From positions 1 through 64,000 of the forward strand of contig QCUL01000006.1 in assembly GCA_003210755.1 (NCBI GenBank): a DNA stretch of 64,000 nucleotides, given 5' to 3'. The translations under genes and the position numbers were made by a program. The notes beneath the pieces are model-generated. The model was not told the DNA's origin. It was given only the letters and a program-made list of their open reading frames with translations, and made no database searches. Shown one piece after another: positions 2,999 through 57,072 of the stretch; position 1 is the first letter of the stretch, and every line of letters starts with the position of its first letter. The DNA comes from Synechococcus sp. AG-679-C18. GTDB lineage: Bacteria > Cyanobacteriota > Cyanobacteriia > PCC-6307 > Cyanobiaceae.

Positions 2999-4378
2999 TT
3001 GAACAGCCCGCTGAAAGGACGTTCGAACTCAGTACCCCAGTGGAAACTCCTCTTGGCTGTCCTCTCGATGGTGCTGGCTTGCAGCGTTTGGTTCCTCGGC
3101 TTGATGGACAGCCTCGGTCGCCCATCTGTTTCGCCTGCCTTGTCCTTAGAGCAACAAGAACTAGCCCTTCTCGCAGACCCTGCCTTGGCACCATCTCTCA
3201 GGCCTTTGCTTGTTGGTCAGGATCCCACCAAGAGCCTCTTGGAAACGCTTAGGGAGACTCCTCTGGATAGGGTCAGCGACCGACAAGCACTCCTGTTCGC
3301 TTCGCTGGAAACCGATCCAGCTCAGCGAAATACTTTGTTGGAGATTCCGCTCAAGAGCCCGGAGCTTCAGACGCTTCAGCAAGTCCTTGCTACCGGCCCC
3401 ATTCCTCGTGATCTCACCCCTCAGGACCAGGACCTGTTGTCAGAAAACAGTCCTGATCCACTAATCCGCCGTGTGGTTTGTTTGGCCCTCGGAGGGGATC
3501 AGAACGCTTGCATTGATCGCCCTGCAGCCATGGCCGCGGCCCGACGCCTCGTTCTCAGCGAGTTGCTGCCGCTTGGAGCGTTGTTGTTGGGTTCACTTTT
3601 ACTGCTGCGTCACATCTGGCTAGTCCTGCGACGAAGTCAATCAGCTTGGCCAGAGCTACAAGCTCCTCCTCTTGGCTTGGTTGACATGGTGCTGTTAATC
3701 GCTGGTGGTTTTGTGGTGCTGGGCGAGGTCTTGGTCCCTCTCCTTGTTACTCCCATCTCTGCTTTGGTTGCACGTGGCATTTCGCCGCCCCTAAATCAGT
3801 CGGTCGCTGTTGTCGTTGGATACGTCGCTTTGGCGACGCCGCCATTACTCATTCTCAAAAGCCAACTCAAAGGTTTAGATCAACGCCTTGTTCCTGAGGG
3901 TGGATGGCTGCAATGGCGCTTGAGTCCTTGGTGGACAGCTGTGCTTCAGGGTGGTCGCGCTTGGTTGATGGTGATGCCGCCCGTGGTGTTCACCGGTTGG
4001 CTGATGACTCGCTTCATTGGGGACCAGGGAGGCAGCAATCCATTGCTGCAAATGGTGCTGAATGGAAGTGATCCTTTGGCCTTGTCTCTGCTAGCTGTCA
4101 CAGCCGTAGTGTTGGCTCCGCTGTTTGAGGAAACAGTCTTCCGTGGCGTTTTGTTGCCTGTCTTAGGTCGCTCGTTAGGACGGGGCTGGAGTGTGTTTGG
4201 TAGTGCCCTCGTGTTTGCGATTGCTCACCTCAGCATTGGTGAATTGCTCCCGTTATTGGTTCTCGGATTGGGACTGGCATTGCTGCGTTTAAGCAGTGGT
4301 CGTCTCCTGCCGTGTGTTGTGATGCATGCTCTTTGGAACGGTGTCACCTTTTTTAATCTTGTCCTGCTCGGTAGTTAA
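2999..4378 (+). CDS. CPBP family intramembrane metalloprotease
   Basis: Multi-TM ORF with LAPLFEETVFRGVLLPVLGR (EExxxR) and VFAIAHLS / VMHALWNGVTFFNL motifs of the CPBP/Abi family. Confidence 0.85.
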   Translation: MNSPLKGRSNSVPQWKLLLAVLSMVLACSVWFLGLMDSLGRPSVSPALSLEQQELALLADPALAPSLRPLLVGQDPTKSLLETLRETPLDRVSDRQALLFASLETDPAQRNTLLEIPLKSPELQTLQQVLATGPIPRDLTPQDQDLLSENSPDPLIRRVVCLALGGDQNACIDRPAAMAAARRLVLSELLPLGALLLGSLLLLRHIWLVLRRSQSAWPELQAPPLGLVDMVLLIAGGFVVLGEVLVPLLVTPISALVARGISPPLNQSVAVVVGYVALATPPLLILKSQLKGLDQRLVPEGGWLQWRLSPWWTAVLQGGRAWLMVMPPVVFTGWLMTRFIGDQGGSNPLLQMVLNGSDPLALSLLAVTAVVLAPLFEETVFRGVLLPVLGRSLGRGWSVFGSALVFAIAHLSIGELLPLLVLGLGLALLRLSSGRLLPCVVMHALWNGVTFFNLVLLGS

Positions 4379-43796: not shown

Positions 43797-44201
43797 TCAA
43801 AGGCGACGGCGGAAGCGGTCGTCACTGAAGCTATTTGTTTGTTGTGAGGAATCAGCATCAATATTTGTTAGACGCCAGACGTTTCTGCTCATCCGATTGG
43901 CACGAAGGCCGCCTCTTTCAACCTCTTCTGACCCAGGTCGGATTCCGAGCAATTGGGTGACCTCAGCCGTGCTTAACGGTGCTCCTGTCTTAATCGCTAA
44001 AGCTGTGAGTTCGAGTCGTTGGCGTAGCTCAACAAGATTGGCAGCACCGCCATCCTCGGCATCACTCCAGATCCACCGCCCAGGACCGTCATGATTGAGC
44101 TTTTGCATTAAGCCCATTCCAATCATCCCTAAAGCCTGTTCGGCGCTGAGCTCTGAACTTAAGGCGGATGTTTCAGGGGTATGGGTTTGGTTGGCTGCCA
44201 T
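43797..44201 (-). CDS. Conserved hypothetical protein next to the carboxysome locus
   Basis: 134-aa ORF, divergent from csoS1D; LSAEQALGMIGMGLMQKLNHDGPGRWIWSDAEDGGAANLVELRQRLELTALAIKTGAPLSTAEVTQLLGIRPGSEEVERGGLRANRMSRNVWRL. Confidence 0.75.
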   Translation of the reverse strand: MAANQTHTPETSALSSELSAEQALGMIGMGLMQKLNHDGPGRWIWSDAEDGGAANLVELRQRLELTALAIKTGAPLSTAEVTQLLGIRPGSEEVERGGLRANRMSRNVWRLTNIDADSSQQTNSFSDDRFRRRL

Positions 44202-44297
44202 GCTGCACTCCCGATTTGCGCGGACGGTATCGGTTCATTTGGCTGATGCAAGTCGAGATAGGAATTTTGTGAGCAACCTTCCGGTAATATCCCCGCC

Positions 44298-45083
44298 ATG
44301 ACCCGATTCGCCAGCTTCGATGCCCGGGAGCGGCGAGTAGGCGGAAGCGCTCTCGTCACTGGAACAGAGGTTCACTCCTCCGCGAGCGGAGCCAGCTGTG
44401 TTGTCACTACAGACAGCGAATCCCCACGACTTTTACGCCAAAACAGTCATGTGCAGTCCATTGAACTGCGCACATATGTTTTTCTTGATTCGCTTCAACC
44501 ACAACTCGCCACCTATATGGGCACGGTGAGTCAGGGCTTTTTGCCTATTCCTGGTGATGCCTGTCTTTGGATGGAGGTCTCACCTGGGATGGCAGTGCAT
44601 CGAGTGACCGATATTGCACTGAAAGCAAGCAACGTTCGTTTAGGCCAGATGGTGGTTGAGCGTGCCTTTGGCTCTATGGCTCTTTATCACCGCGATCAGA
44701 GCACCGTGATTCACTCCGGTGATGTTGTTCTTGAGGCAATTGGTAGCTCGATTGATCGGCGAAACCCTGCTGATGTCAGTTGGACTGAAGTCATTAGGGC
44801 AATCACCCCTGATCATGCCGTTCTTATCAATCGATTGAATCGCAGGGGCTCGATGATCGAAGCAGGGATGAGCATGTTCATTCTCGAGACGGAACCAGCT
44901 GGTTATGTCTTGATTGCTGCGAATGAAGCTGAAAAGGCCTCAAACATCACTCTTGTGGATGTGAAGGCTGTCGGCGCGTTTGGACGAATGACTTTGGCGG
45001 GTCGAGAAGGCGATGTTGAAGAAGCTGCTGCCGCTGCGATGCGTGCGATCGAATCGATTAATCGCAACTGTTCATCGCGGTGA
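44298..45083 (+). CDS. csoS1D: Carboxysome tandem-BMC shell protein CsoS1D
   Basis: Two BMC-like halves ([72 protein letters not shown]...); ER pore-type dipeptide; adjacent to the cso operon. Confidence 0.93.
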
Positions 45084-45099
45084 TGATGATTTGGGTGTC

Positions 45100-45702
45100 T
45101 TAGAGGATTCCAAGCTGTTGACGTAGTTGAGGTGCCATAGCCCTTGCTGCTTTTCCGCGACTCCCAAGCCTGCTGAGTTGGGCTTGTGTCATTTCGCCGT
45201 AGCTGCAACGGGTTTCTCGAAGCCAGAACAGGGACTCCAGGCCTCCGTTTGGGTATGCAGGACCTTTGAGAAGTTCACCCCAACAAATGCCCTCTGCGCT
45301 TCCAACGGAAGCCCCATCTGGAGAGCAGAGGACCATGGCGCTACGAAAAAGAGCACTGCGGTAAGGCTGATCAGCCATGGATCGCAATAACTTGGAGATT
45401 TTCTCGTCGTCTGTGGGCGCGAGGCGTGCTGTGTAGAGGCCAGGAGCCCCGTTGAGGGCGTCAACCTCTAGTCCTGAATCATCAGCCAAAGCCCAGGTCC
45501 CTGTGAGCTGTGCTGCTGCAGAGGCCTTGAGGAGAGCATTTTCGAGATAAGACGTACCAGTCTCTTCAACGTCAAGATCTGAAGGTTGGCGCACCACGAT
45601 GAGTGGGAGAGGCCCAAGCATTCCCTCAATTTCCGCAACCTTGTGTGGATTGCCACTGGCGATCGTCAGTTTGAGCACTGAAGGGGATCGAGTGAGATCC
45701 AT
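45100..45702 (-). CDS. rdgB: XTP/dITP pyrophosphatase (RdgB/HAM1 family)
   Basis: LTIASGNPHKVAEIEGML; ETGTSYLENALLKASAAAQLTGTWALADDSGLEVDALNGAPGLYTARLA. Confidence 0.95.
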   Translation of the reverse strand: MDLTRSPSVLKLTIASGNPHKVAEIEGMLGPLPLIVVRQPSDLDVEETGTSYLENALLKASAAAQLTGTWALADDSGLEVDALNGAPGLYTARLAPTDDEKISKLLRSMADQPYRSALFRSAMVLCSPDGASVGSAEGICWGELLKGPAYPNGGLESLFWLRETRCSYGEMTQAQLSRLGSRGKAARAMAPQLRQQLGIL

Positions 45703-46019
45703 TGTGTGGGGTAAGGGTAAAAATATCGATCAGATTCAAAAATGAAGCTCAGCTGGGTTGAACATTCCACTCCGCTTGCGCGAAAAACTTTGCTTCAGGG
45801 GGAAAGATATGGGGTTTGGCGACCCTTGCCTACCGCTTGTGTTGGTGTGCTCACCCGAACCAGCACAGGGCTTCAGATCAGTCCGGGGAAGGGTGATCAG
45901 CATTGCTTATCAAGTTCAGTATGGACATTGATCTGCAAAAACCCCCGAAACGCTTGACGAGCTGCCTCTCGGCAGAGCAATGTCATCGGCGAACATTCCA
46001 CCCCCTTTATCGGTAGGCA

Positions 46020-46331
46020 ATGGCTAACGAAACCATGGGTATCGCTCTCGGCATGATCGAGACACGCGGCCTGGTCCCAGCGATCGAAGCAGCTGACGCC
46101 ATGACCAAGGCTGCTGAAGTGCGCCTGATTGGTCGTGAGTTCGTCGGCGGTGGCTACGTCACAGTTTTGGTACGTGGCGAAACAGGTGCCGTTAACGCGG
46201 CAGTGCGTGCAGGTGCAGATGCTTGCGAGCGTGTCGGCGACGGCCTCGTTGCGGCTCACATCATTGCTCGCCCTCATCGCGAAGTTGAGCCAGCACTCGG
46301 CAACGGCAACTTCCTCGGACAAAAGGATTGA
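46020..46331 (+). CDS. csoS1: Carboxysome hexameric BMC shell protein
   Basis: MANETMGIALGMIETRGLVPAIEAADAMTKAAEVRLIGREFVGGGYVTVLVRGETGAVNAAVRAGADACERVGDGLVAAHIIARPH. Confidence 0.97.
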   Translation: MANETMGIALGMIETRGLVPAIEAADAMTKAAEVRLIGREFVGGGYVTVLVRGETGAVNAAVRAGADACERVGDGLVAAHIIARPHREVEPALGNGNFLGQKD

Positions 46332-46345
46332 GATCAGTCGCTAAT

Positions 46346-46357
46346 CCCCTGACGGGG
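46346..46357 (+). other. Short intercistronic hairpin CCCC-TGAC-GGGG between csoS1 and cbbL
   Basis: Perfect 4-bp G:C stem, tetraloop TGAC, in the csoS1-cbbL spacer. Confidence 0.45.
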
Positions 46358-46399
46358 TCGCGCATCTCATTTCTCTTCCCGAACTAACGGAATTAATCC

Positions 46400-47812
46400 A
46401 TGAGCAAGAAGTACGACGCTGGGGTCAAGGAGTACAGAGACACTTACTGGACTCCTGATTACGTTCCCCTAGATACAGACCTGCTGGCCTGCTTTAAGTG
46501 CACTGGTCAAGAAGGTGTTCCCAAAGAAGAAGTAGCCGCTGCTGTGGCTGCTGAATCTTCAACAGGTACCTGGTCAACTGTGTGGTCTGAGCTCCTCACC
46601 GATCTCGACTTTTACAAAGGCCGTTGTTACCGGATCGAAGACGTCCCTGGTGACAAGGAGGCGTTCTATGCCTTCATCGCTTACCCCCTCGATCTGTTCG
46701 AAGAGGGTTCCATTACCAACGTTCTGACCTCGCTGGTCGGCAACGTGTTTGGATTTAAAGCATTGCGCCACTTGCGTCTGGAAGACATTCGCTTCCCGAT
46801 CGCCTTCATCAAGTGCTGCGCCGGACCGCCAAACGGCATCGCCGTTGAGCGTGATCGGATGAACAAGTATGGCCGCCCACTACTGGGTTGCACCATCAAG
46901 CCAAAGCTTGGTTTGAGCGGTAAGAACTATGGCCGGGTTGTCTATGAGTGCCTTCGCGGCGGTCTGGACTTCACGAAAGACGACGAGAACATCAACTCTC
47001 AGCCTTTCCAGCGCTGGCAGAACCGCTTCGAATTCGTTGCTGAAGCTATCAAGATTGCTGAACAGGAAACGGGCGAGCGGAAGGGTCACTACCTCAACGT
47101 GACTGCTAACACTCCCGAAGAGATGTATGAGCGTGCTGAGTTCGCTAAGGAACTCAATCAGCCCATCATCATGCACGACTTCATTACCGGTGGCTTCACA
47201 GCCAACACCGGTTTGTCGAAGTGGTGCCGCAAGAACGGCATGTTGCTGCACATTCACCGTGCCATGCACGCTGTGATTGATCGTCACCCCAAGCACGGCA
47301 TTCACTTCCGCGTACTTGCCAAGTGTCTGCGTTTGTCAGGTGGTGACCAGCTTCACACCGGCACTGTGGTCGGCAAACTGGAAGGTGATCGTCAGACCAC
47401 CCTCGGCTATATCGACCAACTACGCGAATCCTTCGTTCCTGAAGATCGCAGCCGTGGCAACTTCTTCGATCAGGACTGGGGTTCCATGCCTGGTGTGTTT
47501 GCCGTTGCTTCCGGCGGCATCCACGTTTGGCACATGCCCGCACTGGTTGCCATCTTCGGAGATGATTCAGTTCTCCAGTTCGGTGGTGGTACCCACGGTC
47601 ACCCCTGGGGCTCCGCAGCTGGCGCTGCAGCTAACCGTGTGGCCCTCGAGGCCTGCGTCAAGGCACGCAACGCCGGTCGTGAGATCGAGAAAGAAAGCCG
47701 CGACATCCTCATGGAAGCCGGTAAGCACAGCCCTGAGCTGGCGATCGCTCTCGAGACCTGGAAGGAGATCAAATTTGAGTTCGACACCGTCGACAAACTC
47801 GACGTTCAGTGA
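46400..47812 (+). CDS. cbbL: Form IA RuBisCO large subunit
   Basis: [79 protein letters not shown]. Confidence 0.99.
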
Positions 47813-47847
47813 TCGGTGAACGGGGTGAATTTTCACCCCCCTACCGA
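47813..47847 (+). other. Two-tier hairpin in the cbbL-cbbS spacer
   Basis: TCGGT(gaac)GGGGTG-loop-CACCCC(cct)ACCGA: outer 5-bp and inner at least 6-bp stems starting right after the cbbL stop. Confidence 0.65.
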
Positions 47848-47904
47848 ACCTCAATACGACTCCGGCTGGAAAACTTTGATCCAGCCAAAACATTTTTTTA
47901 AAGC

Positions 47905-48255
47905 GTGATCCCCATGCCTTTTCAGAGCACCGTGGGTGACTACCAAACAGTCGCCACCCTGGAGACATTCGGCTTTCTTCCGCCGATGACCCAGGACGAG
48001 ATCTATGACCAGATCGCTTACATCATTGCCCAAGGTTGGAGCCCGCTCATTGAGCACGTCCACCCTTCCAATTCCATGGCCTCTTATTGGTCTTATTGGA
48101 AGCTCCCGTTCTTCGGTGAGAAGGATCTGAACGTTGTCGTAAGTGAACTCGAGGCTTGCCATCGCGCATACCCCGATCATCACGTTCGTATGGTCGGCTA
48201 CGACGCATACACCCAGGGCCAAGGTGCTTGTTTCGTTGTTTTCGAAGGACGCTGA
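47905..48255 (+). CDS. cbbS: Form IA RuBisCO small subunit
   Basis: MPFQSTVGDYQTVATLETFGFLPPMTQDEIYDQIAYIIAQGWSPLIEHVHPSNSMASYWSYWKLPFFGE. ATG of MPFQS is at about 47914; ORF opens at 47905. Confidence 0.98.
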   Translation: MIPMPFQSTVGDYQTVATLETFGFLPPMTQDEIYDQIAYIIAQGWSPLIEHVHPSNSMASYWSYWKLPFFGEKDLNVVVSELEACHRAYPDHHVRMVGYDAYTQGQGACFVVFEGR

Positions 48256-48275
48256 TCTTTCGGCTTCATGATTCC

Positions 48276-48306
48276 GAGCCCTGAATTGATCAGGGCTCAA
48301 ATTTTT
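48276..48306 (+). terminator. Terminator-like hairpin inside the cso operon (cbbS-csoS2 spacer)
   Basis: Perfect 9-bp stem GAGCCCTGA-attga-TCAGGGCTC followed by AAATTTTT. Confidence 0.75.
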
Positions 48307-48308
48307 CT

Positions 48309-48327
48309 GAAGGGACTTGTTCCCTTC
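48309..48327 (+). promoter_or_regulatory. Second hairpin downstream of the intra-operon terminator
   Basis: Perfect 7-bp stem GAAGGGA-cttgt-TCCCTTC, 27 nt upstream of the csoS2 ATG (48355). Confidence 0.6.
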
Positions 48328-48354
48328 AACTCACGTCGACATTCTCGGGCGGAC

Positions 48355-50742
48355 ATGGCAAGACTCTCTAGTCGCGAACTCGCACTTGAGCGCCGTAAGG
48401 CTCTCACCACTGCTGGTAAAAAAGCATCCGTTGCTGTTTCAGCAGGTGCAAATCGAGTTAGGACGGCCGACGATGCCCGCAAAACTCGCACCGATTCAGA
48501 TCCAGTCGCGTCAGTCTCTAGACACGCTGCTACTCCGATTTCTGTAGAGCGACCAAGCAATCCATCCTTAGCAGCCCCAACGTCCTCTCATCGTTCTCGT
48601 GTGAAACCTGTCAGTCAACCGAGTCGTGAACTTGTGCTGGCACGTCGAGAAGCACTCTCACGTCGTGGTAAGTCAGCAGACACCACAAGAGATCGGAATC
48701 GGGCTGAGATTGCCCGTAAAGCTGCAGCAACGACTTCTTCAACTGGGTCCTCTTCAACAAAGAAAGAGTGTGGTTGTGGTGGTGAAGCTGCCGTTGAAAA
48801 AGCCACTGGTGCGAGTCGTCGGTCTGTCTCTATCGATCTTTCAACCAAAACTTCCTCCCGCCGCACAACTTCTCCAAAGCGTCGTGCAATCGATAATCCC
48901 AGTCGTGCACTTGTTTTAGCCCGTCGTGAGGCCATGTCTAAGCATGGGAAAACAGCTGGTAAACAACCGACGAGTGCCGCTGCAGTTGCCCGTCAGGCAA
49001 ATCCTGACCTCACCAGTCGAGAGCTAGCTCAGCAAGTGCGTGAGCTTCGTGCAAAGTCGGGAGCCCGCAGTAAGCAGAGCGCTGGTGTGACGCGACCAAC
49101 TGGTCCTAACAAGAATGGATCTAAGCAAGTCGCTGCGGCAGATGCCCACTGGAAGGTTGGTGAATCAGAGACGACTGGTGGTCAGACAGTGACTGGAACT
49201 CAGGCCAATCGCTCCACTAAGACCACAGGCAACGAAGCCAGCACTTGCCGATCTATTACCGGTACTGAATATCTCGGTGCAGAAGTCTTCCAAACGTTCT
49301 GTCAGAACGCTCCTGTTTCAACTACGCCAGCCAAAGTTCGAGTGTCTGCCACTTCGCATGGCAACCGCGTAACTGGAAATGAAGTTGGGCGCTCTGAGAA
49401 GGTCACTGGAGATGAGCCCGGTACCTGTAAAAGCGTGACAGGCACTGAATATATCTCAGCAAATCAGAGCGCTGCCTACTGCGGTGGAACGAACCCCTCC
49501 CCTCGTAAAGTTGGTCACAGCCTTACGCAACAGGGACGTCCTGTGAGTGGTGTGATGGTGGGCAGATCTTCCAGCGTGACCGGCGACGAAGCTGGTGCGA
49601 ATCGTTCCCTCACGGGTGATCAATACTTAGGGTCAGATCCACTCCCTGAGGGGCGTCCAGCAGCCAAGGTTGGTTTGTCTGGAACTCTCTCTGGAACAGG
49701 TGTTACCGGCACGATGGTTGGCCGTTCCTCAAATGTCACGGGCGATGAATTTGGATCTTGCCATCGTGTAACCGGTGATCAGTACATCAGTTCAGAACAA
49801 GTCAATTCGTTTTGTGGAGCGAAGCCAGATCCAGAAGCGGCCAAGGTTGGATTCAGTATCACCAACCGCAACCAGGTGGTCAGTGGCACGCGTACTGGGC
49901 GCTCCGAGAAGGTCACCGGTGACGAGCCAGGAAGTTGTAAGGCAGTGACGGGAACTCCTTACGCAGGTCTTGAACAGGCTGGCCAGTATTGCGGTAATTC
50001 AGCAGTCCAAGCGATTCGTGAGCGGACACCTGTGCGCCCCGGTACTCCTGCAGCTCCAATGACAGGCCTACAGCCAGGTATTGGTGGAGTGATGACAGGT
50101 GGTGAACGAGGAGCTTGTGAAGTTGTGACCGGCACTCCTTACATCGGTGCCGATCAGCTTTCAGCCGCCTGTGGGGCAGAAGCACCCGCTGGAACAGACA
50201 GTCATGGTCAATCCCCAGAAGGGTCCAGTTGGACTCGATTCAGTGTGGTCTCCCCAGCGCGAGCTGTTCAGCAACAACGGGATTCCGGCAAAGGGGTCAC
50301 TGGTACGTCCTACGAAGACAGCAGCCGAATTACGGGCCCTTTTGATTTGGCCGGTGGGAAAATCACCGGCACGGAGCAATTCCGATTTGATAATCGCGAA
50401 TTTCAGGAGCGTCACAGCCAACGTCAAGTCCAACGTCAATTTCAACCCACCACACCTGAGGTTGAAGCCGCTGCTCAAGAACCTGCTTCCCGGGTCACAG
50501 GAGAAGGCTCTTCTACCAAAGTCACTGGTGATGACTGGGATCGTGGCAAACACGTAACGGGTACGGAAGGCGTCTCAGCTCGTCGCCGTAATCCAAGCCG
50601 CTCCGGCGCGAGGGAAGCAATGCCCCCATTTGAACGAAAGCGAAACGATCAGTCCGAGTGGCCGGAAAGTCGTGTCACTGGTTCCAGTGGCAACACTGGA
50701 AAAGGTTCACTGATCACCGTCTCTGGCGGAGCACGGGGCTGA
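48355..50742 (+). CDS. csoS2: Carboxysome assembly protein CsoS2
   Basis: N-repeats (SSRELALERRKALTTAGKKA, SRELVLARREALSRRGKSA, SRALVLARREAMSKHGKTA), VTG-rich middle repeats with paired Cys, C-terminal SRVTGSSGNTGKGSLITVSGGARG. ORF opens at 48268. Confidence 0.97.
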   Translation: MARLSSRELALERRKALTTAGKKASVAVSAGANRVRTADDARKTRTDSDPVASVSRHAATPISVERPSNPSLAAPTSSHRSRVKPVSQPSRELVLARREALSRRGKSADTTRDRNRAEIARKAAATTSSTGSSSTKKECGCGGEAAVEKATGASRRSVSIDLSTKTSSRRTTSPKRRAIDNPSRALVLARREAMSKHGKTAGKQPTSAAAVARQANPDLTSRELAQQVRELRAKSGARSKQSAGVTRPTGPNKNGSKQVAAADAHWKVGESETTGGQTVTGTQANRSTKTTGNEASTCRSITGTEYLGAEVFQTFCQNAPVSTTPAKVRVSATSHGNRVTGNEVGRSEKVTGDEPGTCKSVTGTEYISANQSAAYCGGTNPSPRKVGHSLTQQGRPVSGVMVGRSSSVTGDEAGANRSLTGDQYLGSDPLPEGRPAAKVGLSGTLSGTGVTGTMVGRSSNVTGDEFGSCHRVTGDQYISSEQVNSFCGAKPDPEAAKVGFSITNRNQVVSGTRTGRSEKVTGDEPGSCKAVTGTPYAGLEQAGQYCGNSAVQAIRERTPVRPGTPAAPMTGLQPGIGGVMTGGERGACEVVTGTPYIGADQLSAACGAEAPAGTDSHGQSPEGSSWTRFSVVSPARAVQQQRDSGKGVTGTSYEDSSRITGPFDLAGGKITGTEQFRFDNREFQERHSQRQVQRQFQPTTPEVEAAAQEPASRVTGEGSSTKVTGDDWDRGKHVTGTEGVSARRRNPSRSGAREAMPPFERKRNDQSEWPESRVTGSSGNTGKGSLITVSGGARG
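49153..50190 (+). repeat. CsoS2 middle (M) repeats, about six copies
   Basis: Repeated pattern KVG.S.T..G..VTG...GRS.KVTGDE.G.C..VTG..Y......YC seen by eye in the translation. Confidence 0.85.
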
Positions 50743-50749
50743 TCAACTG

Positions 50750-52510
50750 ATGGTTTGGTCTAAGCCTTCTAGCGGCAGGCGACCTCTGTTTCCCACCGCT
50801 CCAACTCGACGTCAGATGCAACGGGAGAAATCCGAAGCCACGTTGTCCTCCCAAGCTGATAAGGGGCCAGTGTCGGCTCGCTCCGCTTCCCTAGAGAGGA
50901 GACGCGCTCTCACCACATCGGGTAAAGCAGCTGTTTTGGTGCAGGGCACCACTGGCGCTGGACGAGTGAGAACAAGTCAAGACAGCAGACGTTTAATTCC
51001 CCAACAACCTGGTTGGGTGCGTCGAGATCAGAGCCAAACAGTTGAGCTGTCTGGACACTTGAATCGCTCTACACCTTTCTCTTCCAATCGTTCAGTAGCC
51101 AATGGCAACCATCCTCTTACGGATCAGGTCGCTAACGATCACCTAGGTGCTTACGAATTAGAAGTCAAGGGGCGCTTCGAAAGAATCGTTCCGCTACTTC
51201 AGAAAGTCTCAGCTCTCCAACATCAATCGGATTTCATCGATCAGGCACAGCTTTTGGCTCGCCGTGAACTCGGATTTGACTTGCCCTCCCACATTCTTGA
51301 GACCGCCTGGGTACGTCCTTTGGACATGAGAGCGCTTTATGCCTGGTGCGTTTTCGAATCGCATCGTGTATTCAGTGATTCTTTCTTTCAGAACGACCCT
51401 CTCGCTTCATCTTCAGGGAGTGAGGCAGCAAGGTCTTTTGATCAATTTCTCCTTGATTGTGGTTTTCATCTGCTTGACGTGACACCTTGCTCGGATGGCC
51501 GGCTGGCTCATTCCATTGCTTATGCCTTGCGCATTCCGTTTAGTTCAGTTCGCCGTCGCTCCCATGCTGGAGCCATGTTTGATGTTGAAAACACGGTCAA
51601 TCGATGGGTCAAGACTGAGCACCGCCGTTATCGCGAATCAACCCCCAACGCAGCTAGCGATGACACGAGCTACCTCAAGGTAGTGACATATCACTTCAGC
51701 TCATTGGATCCAAATCATCAGGGCTGCGCTGCGCATGGAAGCGACGATAATTTGGCAGCTTCCGCTGGATATCAACGTCTCCTTGATTTTCGTCAGGCCG
51801 TTGAAAACAGCTTTTGCTGCGGAGCTTCCGTTGATTTGTTGCTGATTGGACTTGATACCGATTCAGACGCGATTCGTGTTCATCCACCGACCAACGACAG
51901 CTCCACTCAATTGGATCGTTGGGTTTCGGCTCAAGATCTTTACGACGCAACCTTGTTGATGCCTCCTGATCAAGCGTTGGCTCAAATTGCCGAAGCTGTT
52001 GAAACAGGAGCTTCTGGAACGATGAGTTCAGGAATGATTTCATTCCTCACTCGTTTGATTTCAAATAATATTTCTCAGATTGATTATGTTCGTCAACTTC
52101 ATGGTGGACCTTATCCCGATGCAGGCCACGCTGAACGTTTTATTGGTGTTGGGATTGGTTTTAAGGAAGTGCATCTACGGAATCTGACTTATTTTGCTCA
52201 CCTCGACACTGTTGAAGAGGGTGCACCAGATTTAGATGTTGGTGTAAAAATATTCAAGGGTTTAAATGTTTCACGTGATCTTCCTATCCCTGTCGTGATT
52301 CGTTTTGATTACTCCGGTGCTGTTCCTGGTGCGCGAGAACGCGCGATTTCTGATTGTCAGAGAGTTAATTTGGCGATTTCCAATCGCTATTCAAAACTTG
52401 TACGCGATGGATTACTTCACACATGTTTGACGATTCGAGACCGAAGTCAAACGTCACCCGCAGAAGTTGTGGGGTCCACTCTCGATCCTGATCTTCAGGA
52501 GGCTCACTGA
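50750..52510 (+). CDS. csoSCA: Carboxysomal carbonic anhydrase CsoSCA (CsoS3)
   Basis: LDCGFHLLDVTPCSDGRLAHSIAYALRIPFSSVRRRSHAGAMFDVENTVNRWVKTEHRRYRE; YHFSSLDPNHQGCAAHGSDD; position between csoS2 and csoS4A. Confidence 0.96.
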   Translation: MVWSKPSSGRRPLFPTAPTRRQMQREKSEATLSSQADKGPVSARSASLERRRALTTSGKAAVLVQGTTGAGRVRTSQDSRRLIPQQPGWVRRDQSQTVELSGHLNRSTPFSSNRSVANGNHPLTDQVANDHLGAYELEVKGRFERIVPLLQKVSALQHQSDFIDQAQLLARRELGFDLPSHILETAWVRPLDMRALYAWCVFESHRVFSDSFFQNDPLASSSGSEAARSFDQFLLDCGFHLLDVTPCSDGRLAHSIAYALRIPFSSVRRRSHAGAMFDVENTVNRWVKTEHRRYRESTPNAASDDTSYLKVVTYHFSSLDPNHQGCAAHGSDDNLAASAGYQRLLDFRQAVENSFCCGASVDLLLIGLDTDSDAIRVHPPTNDSSTQLDRWVSAQDLYDATLLMPPDQALAQIAEAVETGASGTMSSGMISFLTRLISNNISQIDYVRQLHGGPYPDAGHAERFIGVGIGFKEVHLRNLTYFAHLDTVEEGAPDLDVGVKIFKGLNVSRDLPIPVVIRFDYSGAVPGARERAISDCQRVNLAISNRYSKLVRDGLLHTCLTIRDRSQTSPAEVVGSTLDPDLQEAH

Positions 52511-52512
52511 TT

Positions 52513-52800
52513 ATGTTAATTGTTAAAGTCATTAAACCACTAGTATCTACTAACCGCATTCCTGATTTCGAACATAAACATCTACAGGTTGTTTTGGACG
52601 GCAGTACTCAAAAAGTTGCTGTTGATGCTGTTGGCGCTAAACCTGGAGATTGGGTGATTTGTGTAAGCAGTTCTGCAGCTAGGGAAGCTGCAGGAAGTAA
52701 GTCTTACCCAAGTGACCTAACAATTGTTGGGATTATTGATCATTGGGACCCTGATCCACCTAAAACGTCTCCGCCTGCATTTAAGGAGTCGAAGAATTAA
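52513..52800 (+). CDS. csoS4A: Carboxysome vertex protein CsoS4A
   Basis: BMV/EutN-CcmL-like: MLIVKVIKPLVSTNRIPDFEHKHLQVVLDG...AVDAVGAKPGDWVICVSSSAAREAAGSKSYPSDLTIVGIIDHW. Confidence 0.95.
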   Translation: MLIVKVIKPLVSTNRIPDFEHKHLQVVLDGSTQKVAVDAVGAKPGDWVICVSSSAAREAAGSKSYPSDLTIVGIIDHWDPDPPKTSPPAFKESKN

Positions 52801-53051
52801 TGGAAATCATGCAGGTGATGGGCACATTGGTCTGTACCTGTCGCGTTGCAGGTTTGGATCACATGCACATGCGCATTCTCAAAAACAACAAAGGAAAGAA
52901 GCTCGTTGCCGTCGACCCGGTTGGAGCTCGTGAGGGCAATTGGGTTTTCACGGCTAGTGGTTCAGCTGCAAGACATGCCTGTCCGGATAACACCGTTCTG
53001 ACCGACCTCACTATTGGTGGAATCATCGATCACTGGATGCCTGATGGATAA
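52800..53051 (+). CDS. csoS4B: Carboxysome vertex protein CsoS4B
   Basis: MEIMQVMGTLVCTCRVAGLDHMHMRILKNNKGKKLVAVDPVGAREGNWVFTASGSAARHACPDNTVLTDLTIGGIIDHW; overlaps the csoS4A stop. Confidence 0.95.
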   Translation: MEIMQVMGTLVCTCRVAGLDHMHMRILKNNKGKKLVAVDPVGAREGNWVFTASGSAARHACPDNTVLTDLTIGGIIDHWMPDG

Positions 53052-53095
53052 CTGATTCACGCTCTGCTACTCCGATCCTCACTCCCCTTAATCCA

Positions 53096-53635
53096 ATGGC
53101 CACTCCTACTCCTCGCCGACGCTCCAGTGCAGACGCTGCTGCAGCGACCTCCGCAAGCAAAGCTGTGCCATCTTCCTCTTCAGCATCAAAGGCAACTGTT
53201 GATGTGAAGCCTCTTGCAAGCAACGCGGCCTCCTCAAAAAGTGCTTCCTCTCGAACTACGTCTCGAGGCACTTCTTCAGGAGGCAATAGCGGAAGTGGCT
53301 CAGCTCTCAATCCTTCGTCTACCTCATCTCAGAGACCTTTTTTCGGAATTGCTCTTGGCATGATCGAGACGCGAGGAATGGTTCCTGCGATTGAGGCTGC
53401 GGATGCAATGACGAAAGCTGCCGAAGTTCAACTCATTAGCCGTGAATACGTGGGTGGTGGTTATGTCACCGTGATGGTTCGTGGAGAAACTGGAGCGGTT
53501 AACGCTGCGGTGCGTGCTGGGGCCGACGCTTGTGAACGTGTTGGTGACGGCCTTGTTGCAGCTCACATCATTGCTCGTCCTCACGATGAGGTTGAGCCAG
53601 CTCTCTCCTGTACAAATGTGACGCGTCGGATGTGA
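53096..53635 (+). CDS. csoS1E: CsoS1E-type BMC shell protein with long low-complexity N-terminal extension
   Basis: About 80-aa Ser/Ala/Thr-rich N-terminus followed by a BMC domain nearly identical to csoS1 (GIALGMIETRGMVPAIEAADAMTKAAEVQLISREYVGGGYVTVMVRGETGAVNAAVRAGADACERVGDGLVAAHIIARPH). Confidence 0.92.
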   Translation: MATPTPRRRSSADAAAATSASKAVPSSSSASKATVDVKPLASNAASSKSASSRTTSRGTSSGGNSGSGSALNPSSTSSQRPFFGIALGMIETRGMVPAIEAADAMTKAAEVQLISREYVGGGYVTVMVRGETGAVNAAVRAGADACERVGDGLVAAHIIARPHDEVEPALSCTNVTRRM

Positions 53636-53714
53636 TGGTTACGACAACGGTCCCTTACCTCGTCTAGATTCCCGCCCCAAGTTCACTTTCAACGGCGCAA
53701 ACGCCCCGTTTCCT

Positions 53715-55559
53715 TTGACCTCAGCTGCAACGCTGCCTCTGCAAACAGCCTGGTTGATCCCGCTCTATGGGTTCTCCGGGATGTTGATCTCTTTGCCTTG
53801 GGCCCTGGGGGCATTCAAGCGTGATGCTCATCGCCCAGCGGCTTATCTGAATATTCTGCTCACGCTGATTGCGTTCATTCACGGAAGCCTTGTGCTTCGT
53901 GATGTCATGACAGGTGGCCCAACGGTTCTGACTTTTCCGTGGCTTAGTGTCGCTGATCTGAATTTAGACATCAGTTTCAGCCTTTCATTGACCAATGTGT
54001 CTGCCCTTGAATTGATCACAGGTCTGAGTTTGTTTTCTCAGGTTTATTCCCTGGGGTATCTCGATAAAGAGTGGGCTCTAGCCCGCTTCTTTGCATTGCT
54101 TGGCTTCTTTGAAGGAGCGATGTCTGGAGTTGTTCTAAGTGACTCCTTGTTTCAGAGCTATTTCTTGCTGGAAATGCTTACGCTCTCCACCTACCTGTTG
54201 GTGGGGTTTTGGTATTCCCAGCCACTCGTGGTGACAGCGGCAAGAGATGCCTTCCTCACAAAGCGTGTTGGTGATGTGATGTTGCTGATGGGGATGGTGG
54301 CTCTAGCCACTTGGTCCGGTGTGATCAGTTTTGATGACCTTTATGCATGGTCAGCTTCCGAGACGATCAGTCCCCTTGCTGCCACATTGCTGGGTCTCGG
54401 ACTGATTGCTGGACCAACAGGTAAGTGTGCCCAATTTCCTATGCACCTTTGGCTGGATGAAGCCATGGAAGGTCCGAACCCGGCATCGATTCTTCGTAAT
54501 TCAGTGGTTGTGACCTGCGGAGCCATTGTTCTACTCAAGGTGATGCCATTGCTCCAGCATGCACCTGTCACTCTCATTGTTCTCCAAGTGATCGGATCGA
54601 TCAGTGCGATTGGAGGCTCCTTGGTGTCTATCGCCCAGGTAGACATCAAGCGCACACTCTCCTATTCAACAACTGCCTACTTGGGGCTCGTTTTCATTGC
54701 AATCTCATTGCAAGTTCCTGTCTTGGCTCTGCTTCTCCTGTTTGCACATGCCGTCTCGAAGGCTCTGCTTTCGATGAGCGTAGGTGGCGTGATTGCTTCA
54801 ACCAATTGTCAGGACATTACTGAGCTTGGCGGTCTTGGCGGAAGAATGCCGGCTACAACTGGTTCGTTCCTAGTTGGGAGTGCAGGCCTCGTAGGTCTTC
54901 TACCACTTGGCGGATTTCTTTGTTTAGCTCAGGCAGTTGAGCTGATAGGTGCTCGCTCAGTGATCTTCGTACCTGTCTTTCTTCTGACAAACGCCCTTAC
55001 AGCGCTGAATCTCACAAGGGTTTATCGCCAAGTGTTTCTTGGCCGCTCATTAACTAAAACTCGGAGGGCTGCCGAGGTGAATTGGCAGATGGCATTTCCA
55101 ATGGTGGCTCTATCAGTCATCGTTGTGCTGACTCCTTTCTTGCTGATTCGTCTGGAATCCTTAGATGGCTTGCTCGCTTTCCCTCTTTGGGCGGCGGGTC
55201 TTGTGGTTGGCAGTGGTGTGATTGGATTGTTAGTTGGTTCTTTGATTCCACTGAATAAAGCATGGTCAAGATCATTAAATCCAGTATTACGTTGGTTCCA
55301 GGATCTTCTTGAAAATGATTTCTATACCGAGCGATTTTACAGGCTGACGATTGTTAACGTAGTGGCCTTGTTTTCAAGACTTGCGTATAGCTTCGATCGT
55401 AATATTGTAGATGGTGTACTCCATGGACTTGCACGGTTATCACTTCAGAGTGCTGAAGGTCTTAAGTTGAGTATTAGTGGTCAAAGCCAAAGTTATTTGT
55501 TGACAGTGATTGCTGCCATTGTGTTGCTTTTGTCATCGCTGAGTTGGTGGTTGAACTGA
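53715..55559 (+). CDS. ndhF4: NDH-1 subunit F, CO2-uptake type (NdhF4-like)
   Basis: Proton-pumping subunit motifs (TGKCAQFPMHLWLDEAMEGPNPASILRNS...VDIKRTLSYSTTAYLGL); followed by ndhD and a CO2 hydration protein. TTG start. Confidence 0.88.
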   Translation: MTSAATLPLQTAWLIPLYGFSGMLISLPWALGAFKRDAHRPAAYLNILLTLIAFIHGSLVLRDVMTGGPTVLTFPWLSVADLNLDISFSLSLTNVSALELITGLSLFSQVYSLGYLDKEWALARFFALLGFFEGAMSGVVLSDSLFQSYFLLEMLTLSTYLLVGFWYSQPLVVTAARDAFLTKRVGDVMLLMGMVALATWSGVISFDDLYAWSASETISPLAATLLGLGLIAGPTGKCAQFPMHLWLDEAMEGPNPASILRNSVVVTCGAIVLLKVMPLLQHAPVTLIVLQVIGSISAIGGSLVSIAQVDIKRTLSYSTTAYLGLVFIAISLQVPVLALLLLFAHAVSKALLSMSVGGVIASTNCQDITELGGLGGRMPATTGSFLVGSAGLVGLLPLGGFLCLAQAVELIGARSVIFVPVFLLTNALTALNLTRVYRQVFLGRSLTKTRRAAEVNWQMAFPMVALSVIVVLTPFLLIRLESLDGLLAFPLWAAGLVVGSGVIGLLVGSLIPLNKAWSRSLNPVLRWFQDLLENDFYTERFYRLTIVNVVALFSRLAYSFDRNIVDGVLHGLARLSLQSAEGLKLSISGQSQSYLLTVIAAIVLLLSSLSWWLN

Positions 55560-55563
55560 AGTA

Positions 55564-57072
55564 ATGATGATTCTTACTCTCCTACTTTTAATCCCATTCC
55601 TTGGAACTCTGCTTCTTTCGCTATGGCCACCTGGATCCAGTTCAGCTCAACTAAGGCGTCTTACACTTTTTATTCTTTCTGCTCAATGCATTGCAAGTTT
55701 TGCGGTGCTTTTTTGGTTTGATCCTGGAAATCCCGGCTTGCAGCTTCAGGAGCGTCTGTCTTGGCTCCCCAGCGTAGGACTTGATTACTCTTTAGCAGTT
55801 GATGGAATTTCTCTCCCTCTAGTTTTGATGAATGCTGTGCTTTGTCTTGTTGCAGCATTGGCATCACGAAGAATCGAGAACCGTCCCAGAATTTATTTTG
55901 CGCTTCTACTAATTATTAGTGGTGCTGTTAATGGAGCTTTTTTATCTCAAAATTTGCTTCTATTTTTCCTCTTTTATGAACTTGAACTCATTCCACTTTG
56001 GCTGCTGATTGCTGTTTGGGGAGGTGCTAATCGCGCCTATGCCTCTACTAAATTCCTCATTGTTACTGCAGTATCTGGAATTTTAATTTTGGCTGCATTT
56101 CTAGGCATTTCCCTTGTCACTGGAAGCGTCGATTTTGGCATTCGTCCAATCTTGTCAGGAGAGATGGGTCTCACCTCTCAGTTATTGCTAATGGGTGCAT
56201 TGCTTATTGGTTTCGGGATCAAGATCCCTCTTTTTCCTTTCCACACTTGGCTCCCTGATGCTCATACCGAAGCATCGACTCCTGTTTCAGTCCTCCTTGC
56301 GGGAGTTCTTCTCAAGCTTGGAACGTATGGATTGCTGCGCTTCTGTCTTGGCCTTTTCCCAGAAGCATGGGAATTGGCAGCTCCATGGTTAGCTCTATGG
56401 GCTGCAGTTTCCGTGCTCTATGGCTCTTTGGCCGCCATTGCTCAGTCGGATATGAAGCGGATGGTGGCTTACAGCTCCGTAGGTCATATGGGATACGTGC
56501 TTTTAGCTGCAGCTGCAGCAACGCCCTTGGGTTTGATCGGTGCGCTGTTCCAAATGGTGAGTCACGGTTTGATTTCAGCAGTTCTTTTTCTTGCTGTAGG
56601 TGTTGTTTACGAACGAACTGGTACAAGAGATCTGAATGTTCTTCGTGGACTTCTTAACCCTCAGCGCGGGTTGCCCTTAACGGGCACACTGATGATTGTT
56701 GGGGTAATGGCTAGTGCAGGTATCCCTGGCATGGCAGGCTTTATCTCGGAGTTCCTTGTGTTTAGAGGAAGCCTCCAACCATTTCCACTAGCCACCTTGC
56801 TTTGCATGGTGGGGTCAGGTTTAACGGCGGTGTATTTCTTGTTACTGGTTAACAGAGCATTTTTTGGACGCCTGGCTATTGCTGCAGGCAGTGTTGCGAA
56901 CCCAAATATTCTCTCGACGGTGGCACTGCAGGAGCAACTTCCCGCAATTGCCCTCTCCTTCGTTGTGCTTCTTCTTGGTCTTGCTCCAGACCTCCTAGTC
57001 GGGATGAGTCAGGCGGCTACAACAAGTCTTAGTGACTTAGCCCTCTTACAAACAACAGGTGGATTGTCATGA
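55564..57072 (+). CDS. ndhD4: NDH-1 subunit D, CO2-uptake type (NdhD4-like)
   Basis: IPLFPFHTWLPDAHTEASTPVSVLLAGVLLKLGTYGLLRF; AQSDMKRMVAYSSVGHMGYVLL. Confidence 0.92.
   Translation: MMILTLLLLIPFLGTLLLSLWPPGSSSAQLRRLTLFILSAQCIASFAVLFWFDPGNPGLQLQERLSWLPSVGLDYSLAVDGISLPLVLMNAVLCLVAALASRRIENRPRIYFALLLIISGAVNGAFLSQNLLLFFLFYELELIPLWLLIAVWGGANRAYASTKFLIVTAVSGILILAAFLGISLVTGSVDFGIRPILSGEMGLTSQLLLMGALLIGFGIKIPLFPFHTWLPDAHTEASTPVSVLLAGVLLKLGTYGLLRFCLGLFPEAWELAAPWLALWAAVSVLYGSLAAIAQSDMKRMVAYSSVGHMGYVLLAAAAATPLGLIGALFQMVSHGLISAVLFLAVGVVYERTGTRDLNVLRGLLNPQRGLPLTGTLMIVGVMASAGIPGMAGFISEFLVFRGSLQPFPLATLLCMVGSGLTAVYFLLLVNRAFFGRLAIAAGSVANPNILSTVALQEQLPAIALSFVVLLLGLAPDLLVGMSQAATTSLSDLALLQTTGGLS

Follow-up and report, generated by a model that had tools for sequence, protein, structure and literature searches.

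RuBisCO, scaffold, carbonic anhydrase and vertex protein are made in widely differing quantities from a single cso operon, and how this comes about is an open question. Secondary-structure elements were reportedly proposed in the cso operon of Halothiobacillus neapolitanus by Cai et al. in 2008 (Arch Microbiol 189:141, cited in PMC12918739). Selective RNA processing and stabilisation (SRPS) in Clostridium operons offers a precedent for the mechanism considered below (PMC4423207, PMC8219983). An incomplete terminator inside the phycocyanin (cpc) operon sets a ratio of about 6:1 in Synechococcus elongatus, and both this species and Synechocystis are without Rho (PMC3219970).

Here we analysed a 64,000-nucleotide stretch of Synechococcus DNA (the window), which contains a picocyanobacterial cso locus whose flanking genes were checked by Pfam (BMC, RuBisCO large and small, CsoS2_M, CsoSCA and CcmL-type). 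Within the window, csoS2, csoS3, csoS4A and csoS4B abut or overlap one another. The 99-nt spacer between cbbS and csoS2 (48256-48354) holds two hairpins, the first of which probably marks a cut site or a protected 3′ end of a shared mRNA from which more RuBisCO is made than of the downstream-encoded proteins. A csoS2 start inside the spacer, as an in-frame ORF from 48268 would imply, was rejected as an open-frame artefact; the conserved CsoS2 N-terminus MARLSSRELALERRKAL begins at 48355.

Table 1 Features of the cso locus, in window coordinates.
Feature	Position	Strand	Basis or remark
csoS1	46020-46331		ORF list and Pfam (BMC)
Small weak hairpin 3′ of csoS1, CCCC-TGAC-GGGG	46346-46357	+	median z only -1.14 for the csoS1-cbbL spacer
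cbbL, RuBisCO large subunit	46400-47812	+	Pfam (RuBisCO large)
Hairpin A, 3′ of cbbL; compound stem, core GGGGTGAA/TTCACCCC	47813-47847	+	equivalent element at the cbbL/cbbS junction; compensatory changes
Hairpin B, 5′ of cbbS; GGCTGGA/TCCAGCC, then AAAACA and U-run	47864-47886	+	hairpin comparison and covariation
cbbS, RuBisCO small subunit	47914-48255	+	Pfam (RuBisCO small)
Hairpin 1; 9-bp stem GAGCCCTGA/TCAGGGCTC, 5-nt loop ATTGA	48276-48298	+	conserved 3′ stem-loop of cbbS
Linker AAAUUUUUC, single-stranded; candidate RNase E cut site	48299-48307	+	A at -4/-3, U at +2
Hairpin 2; 8-bp stem TGAAGGGA/TCCCTTCA, 5-nt loop CTTGT	48308-48328	+	predicted near the 5′ end of any processed csoS2 mRNA
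csoS2 leader	48329-48354	+	near-invariant GGGCGGAC ahead of ATG (alignment)
csoS2, carboxysome scaffold	48355-50742	+	ATG at 48355; Pfam CsoS2_M
csoS3	50750-52510		Pfam CsoSCA
csoS4A	52513-52800		Pfam CcmL-type
csoS4B	52800-53051		Pfam CcmL-type
Second BMC gene	53096-53635		Pfam

An earlier note on this DNA had described perfect stems of 9 and 7 bp in the spacer; the first was exact, whereas the second proved to be one pair longer. Hairpin 1 is stable and G+C-rich (-15.7 kcal/mol), and the linker behind it consists of AAATTTTT (48299-48306) followed by C at 48307. Across three sequence contexts both stems paired with a probability of 0.85-1.0, with the linker 86-99% unpaired. Folded with its flanks, the spacer gave a z of -2.9, and none of 200 shuffles was equally stable. 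Moreover, a perfect stem of at least 9 bp arose in 36 of 20,000 dinucleotide shuffles of the spacer, and such a stem together with a second, disjoint stem of at least 7 bp in only 1 of 20,000; a chance origin of the hairpins is thus excluded. The suggestion that the second hairpin hides a regulatory switch found no support, as the two stems fold independently with a probability near 1. A riboswitch or alternative-fold leader was likewise rejected, there being no mutually exclusive folds and both stems coexisting at 0.85-1.0. Membership of a known Rfam family was also rejected, since no match at gathering score lay within 44000-56000 and a permissive search returned chance-level matches only.

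For comparison across species, 80 cbbS loci from genome contigs and 20 from relatives were combined with the window, giving 100 usable cbbS-csoS2 spacers that span marine Synechococcus, Prochlorococcus and Cyanobium- or Vulcanococcus-like genomes. All 100 of these alpha-cyanobacterial spacers held a simple hairpin at or below -12 kcal/mol (median -16.6), usually starting about 17-20 nt past the cbbS stop. Its stem letters were wholly exchanged from clade to clade: marine Synechococcus has GAGCCCTGA, Prochlorococcus TAGCCTCGA and the Cyanobium-like genomes GGTCCCGG. In a plain MAFFT alignment of 32 diverse sequences drawn across the clades, 99.0% of stem-1 cells were paired compared to 78.4% after shuffling, and the covariation score reached 0.752, against 0.339 for shuffled and at most 0.209 for slid controls. 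Conservation of the stem with compensatory changes in relatives, on which the earlier note had staked its own refutation, was borne out in this alignment by changes on both sides of all nine pairs. Within the Cyanobium-like group by itself, 6 of 7 stem-1 pairs covaried, and spacers with long insertions (e.g. L041) still held a strong hairpin inside. Every alpha-cyanobacterium examined has hairpin 1 immediately 3′ of cbbS, with compensatory changes preserving it; this conserved RNA element holds its shape as its sequence turns over.

Several observations stand beside this comparison. The Cyanobium-like locus L041 carries, from position 4343 onward, an insertion of several hundred nucleotides in the cbbS-csoS2 spacer, where a GTGGTCCTGG-type hairpin persists beside csoS2. 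Both spacers of the cso plasmid loci of Thiodictyon (L082) and Nitrobacter (L083) folded strongly, two cases being too few to generalise. The Thiodictyon plasmid contains an inverted repeat of ~21 bp with a long loop (GGAGGTCGAGGCTTTAGCCGG...; L082:5346-5571) between cbbS and csoS2. A pattern scan of viral contigs found 12 stretches in the whole collection.

Among 30 marine Synechococcus sequences, 6 of the 9 stem-1 pairs never varied, whereas the loop and flanks did, and none of the 7 counted stem-2 pairs was invariant. This near-invariance exceeds the needs of pairing and could reflect a binding partner, that is, a protein or small RNA that reads the sequence of hairpin 1 and links RuBisCO mRNA to stability, translation or localisation. 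The occurrence of the stem at most once per genome in the genus agrees with such a site; its exact sequence was found once in 21 of 25 genomes and was absent from the other four. Nevertheless, the stem sequence is fully replaced between clades, so that the partner would have had to change too, and no candidate partner was identified, and we consider a binding or pairing site improbable. A dispersed repeat was rejected on the same 25 genomes, given that the exact stem occurs at most once in each.

Hairpin 2 showed compensatory changes at 4 of the 7 counted pairs in 30 marine-Synechococcus-type spacers, some rows of which are misregistered by MAFFT. The changes in 13 Prochlorococcus sequences were mostly one-sided, and 94.5% of the hairpin was paired. 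At least two lineages, L103 (with an 85-nt spacer) and L075, have lost it by deletion, which makes it a covariation-supported but accessory part of the element; the same deletions weaken the idea that it serves as an obligatory 5′ protector of the downstream transcript. Further downstream, GGGCGGAC (48347-48354) abuts the csoS2 ATG. Of 30 marine Synechococcus-type genomes, 28-29 share it without change, and Cyanobium-like genomes have a similar sequence; it is not readily recognisable as a Shine-Dalgarno sequence.

Comparable hairpins were present at the cbbL/cbbS junction. Median folding z was -3.4 for cbbL-cbbS, -3.2 for cbbS-csoS2 and -1.1 for csoS1-cbbL spacers. The cbbL-cbbS spacer (47813-47913) carries two hairpins in most clades and one in a 59-nt short form found in many marine Synechococcus, whose single hairpin (GGCCGGTTG/CAACCGGCC) is similar to hairpin B. 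Of the consensus pairs, 11 of 20 covaried among long-form marine spacers and 5 of 11 among those of Prochlorococcus. The cbbS leader (47900-47913) closes with a conserved GATCCCC ahead of the ATG, replaced by GTTCACC in Prochlorococcus. Furthermore, the strongest hairpin within 100 nt past the stop had a median of -16.6 for cbbS, -13.5 for cbbL, -8.1 for csoS2 and -5.7 for csoS1 (cbbS versus csoS2, Mann-Whitney p about 6e-23, uncorrected for phylogeny). Strong hairpins mark the RuBisCO cistrons, cbbL and cbbS, and csoS1 and csoS2 are without comparable ones. This distribution leaves little room for the idea that the hairpins insulate adjacent translation units or keep leaders open with no effect on mRNA levels: their location at wide spacers and the conserved leaders directly before cbbS and csoS2 would suit insulation, which nonetheless leaves unexplained why they follow cbbL and cbbS and not csoS1 or csoS2, and we regard it as very improbable. 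RuBisCO subunits have to be supplied 1:1, which termination between their two genes would upset; this speaks for a role in processing or stability for the whole set of hairpins.

The main rival to a role in processing and stabilisation is partial termination, in which hairpin 1 and its U-run would act as an attenuator that frees a fraction of the RNA polymerase and lowers transcription from csoS2 onward relative to cbbLS. Such incomplete terminators are known inside cyanobacterial operons (PMC3219970). A simple terminator scan lists hairpin 1 followed by AAAUUUUU, a run of at least four U is retained in 36 of 39 marine-type linkers, and the AAAUUUUU hybrid is still weak, which leaves some probability for weak partial termination. 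The position of the run, however, does not fit. Terminators were scored by the d'Aubenton-Carafa formula. The baseline joined the window to 400 kb from the close relative G222, and its genes were predicted with a simple dicodon caller of our own making. Here all 20 terminator-scoring 3′ ends had their U-run at offset 0, which is partly inherent in the score (e.g. CCCTCCCCTAAGGGAGGG followed directly by TTTTTTT). In the window, the U-run lies at offset 3 from hairpin 1 and the score is about -35, in place of the U-run at the stem base and the positive score of an intrinsic terminator. The offset was 3-4 in 31 of 39 marine-type spacers, with a median score of about -37 that never exceeded 0, and in Cyanobium-like genomes the run was displaced by 4-7 nt or absent. 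The run is gone (AACAATTCC) but the hairpin persists in L084, which is closely related to the window. Given this displacement, absence or low scoring of the run and its loss in L084, the conserved feature is the hairpin and not the terminator register. Termination is less clearly excluded in Prochlorococcus than in other clades, because there the tail is more often T-rich right beside the stem: 9 of 22 spacers have offset 0, and 4 of these 22 spacers score above 0.

The earlier note had placed a partial terminator or processing site at this boundary. The placement between RuBisCO and scaffold genes stands, and a role in processing or decay fits, whereas the terminator half of the proposal is weakened by the displaced or absent U-run, by scores that are never positive in 39 marine types and by the hairpins that also separate cbbL from cbbS. 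Since the products of these two genes are needed 1:1, processing is the more plausible of the two, and we regard partial termination as rather unlikely.

Of the readings considered we favour, at about even odds, that the spacer is a processing and 3′-end stabilisation element of RuBisCO mRNA, cut in its AU linker and protected by hairpin 1. Under processing and stabilisation, a polycistronic RNA running from csoS1 through cbbL and cbbS into csoS2 and beyond would be cut in the single-stranded, AU-rich linker past hairpin 1, most likely by RNase E. The upstream csoS1-cbbL-cbbS RNA would then end in a stable hairpin that blocks 3′-5′ exonucleases such as PNPase, and would outlive the csoS2-csoS3-csoS4 part, which is without comparable internal hairpins. 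Hairpin 2, where present, would cap the 5′ end of the downstream csoS2 RNA. An equivalent element sits at the cbbL/cbbS junction. One promoter could in this way yield more RuBisCO mRNA relative to the csoS2, carbonic anhydrase and vertex messages.

In the summary of Hoffmann et al. given in PMC10989914, Synechocystis RNase E sites are enriched in A at -4/-3 and in U downstream, especially at +2, and one reported case has the cut just 3′ of a stem-loop; PNPase stalls at stable RNA structures (PMC10989914). Marine linkers follow the pattern stem-AAN-UUUUU, and AANNNU occurs in 25 of 39, compared to a mean of 4.2 (sd 1.8) for shuffled linker letters. The linker matches the cyanobacterial RNase E preference and is a candidate cut site. 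Counting against a cut in the linker, it is C-rich or short in Cyanobium-like genomes, and the fact that hairpin 2 is not universal also speaks against processing and stabilisation, as does the near-invariance of the stem-1 sequence within marine Synechococcus. Contrary evidence comes from Prochlorococcus MED4, in which RNA stability increases with distance from the start site, and the CO2-fixation genes of the long-lived cluster sit mid-to-end of their operons (PMC2897979). Read simply, processing and stabilisation would make the RuBisCO part the longer-lived one, and the MED4 pattern runs the other way; slow elongation after rifampicin may play a part in it. Collectively, the evidence is good for the element and moderate for the mechanism.

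With somewhat less than even confidence, we propose a new, alpha-cyanobacteria-wide RNA element that would cut and cap RuBisCO messages at both junctions; with a single promoter, unequal decay of the mRNAs would then set carboxysome stoichiometry. Open-access full text, which does not cover most of the subscription literature, yielded no report of hairpins at the cyanobacterial cbbS-csoS2 junction. Lying exactly where the RuBisCO genes give way to the scaffold gene in the most abundant phototrophs of the ocean, the conserved RNA element provides a precise, mutable place to test stoichiometry. Alpha-carboxysomes are being transferred into plants and bacteria, and constructs with artificial intergenic regions would omit the hairpin element.

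Among described systems, the cip-cel operon of Clostridium cellulolyticum is alike in having 3′ stem-loops after highly needed cistrons, in encoding a multi-protein assembly and in a possible cut beside the stem (PMC4423207). The 3′ stem-loops of selected cistrons that mark SRPS are found here too, conserved as structure; the host differs, being a cyanobacterium with RNase E and not a Firmicute. SRPS operons are further marked by an intercistronic processing site beside the stem-loop, for which the match of the linker to the RNase E preference makes a candidate here, and by a stem-loop free energy that tracks the transcript ratio of the flanking genes. The S. elongatus cpc terminator (PMC3219970) likewise lies in a cyanobacterial operon, with its hairpin parting plentiful from scarce components; at cbbS, in contrast, a gap separates U-run and stem, and the site falls short of a terminator score. 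The Synechocystis TIER-seq sites, as far as PMC10989914 summarises them, resemble the linker in being AU-rich and single-stranded, with A at -4/-3, U at +2 and one cut 3′ of a stem-loop, and the cso linker compares with them as a sequence match. The elements reportedly proposed in H. neapolitanus belong to the same operon type and express the same idea of RNA structure setting unequal carboxysome protein levels; that host is a proteobacterium, whereas the cross-species covariation presented here covers the alpha-cyanobacteria.
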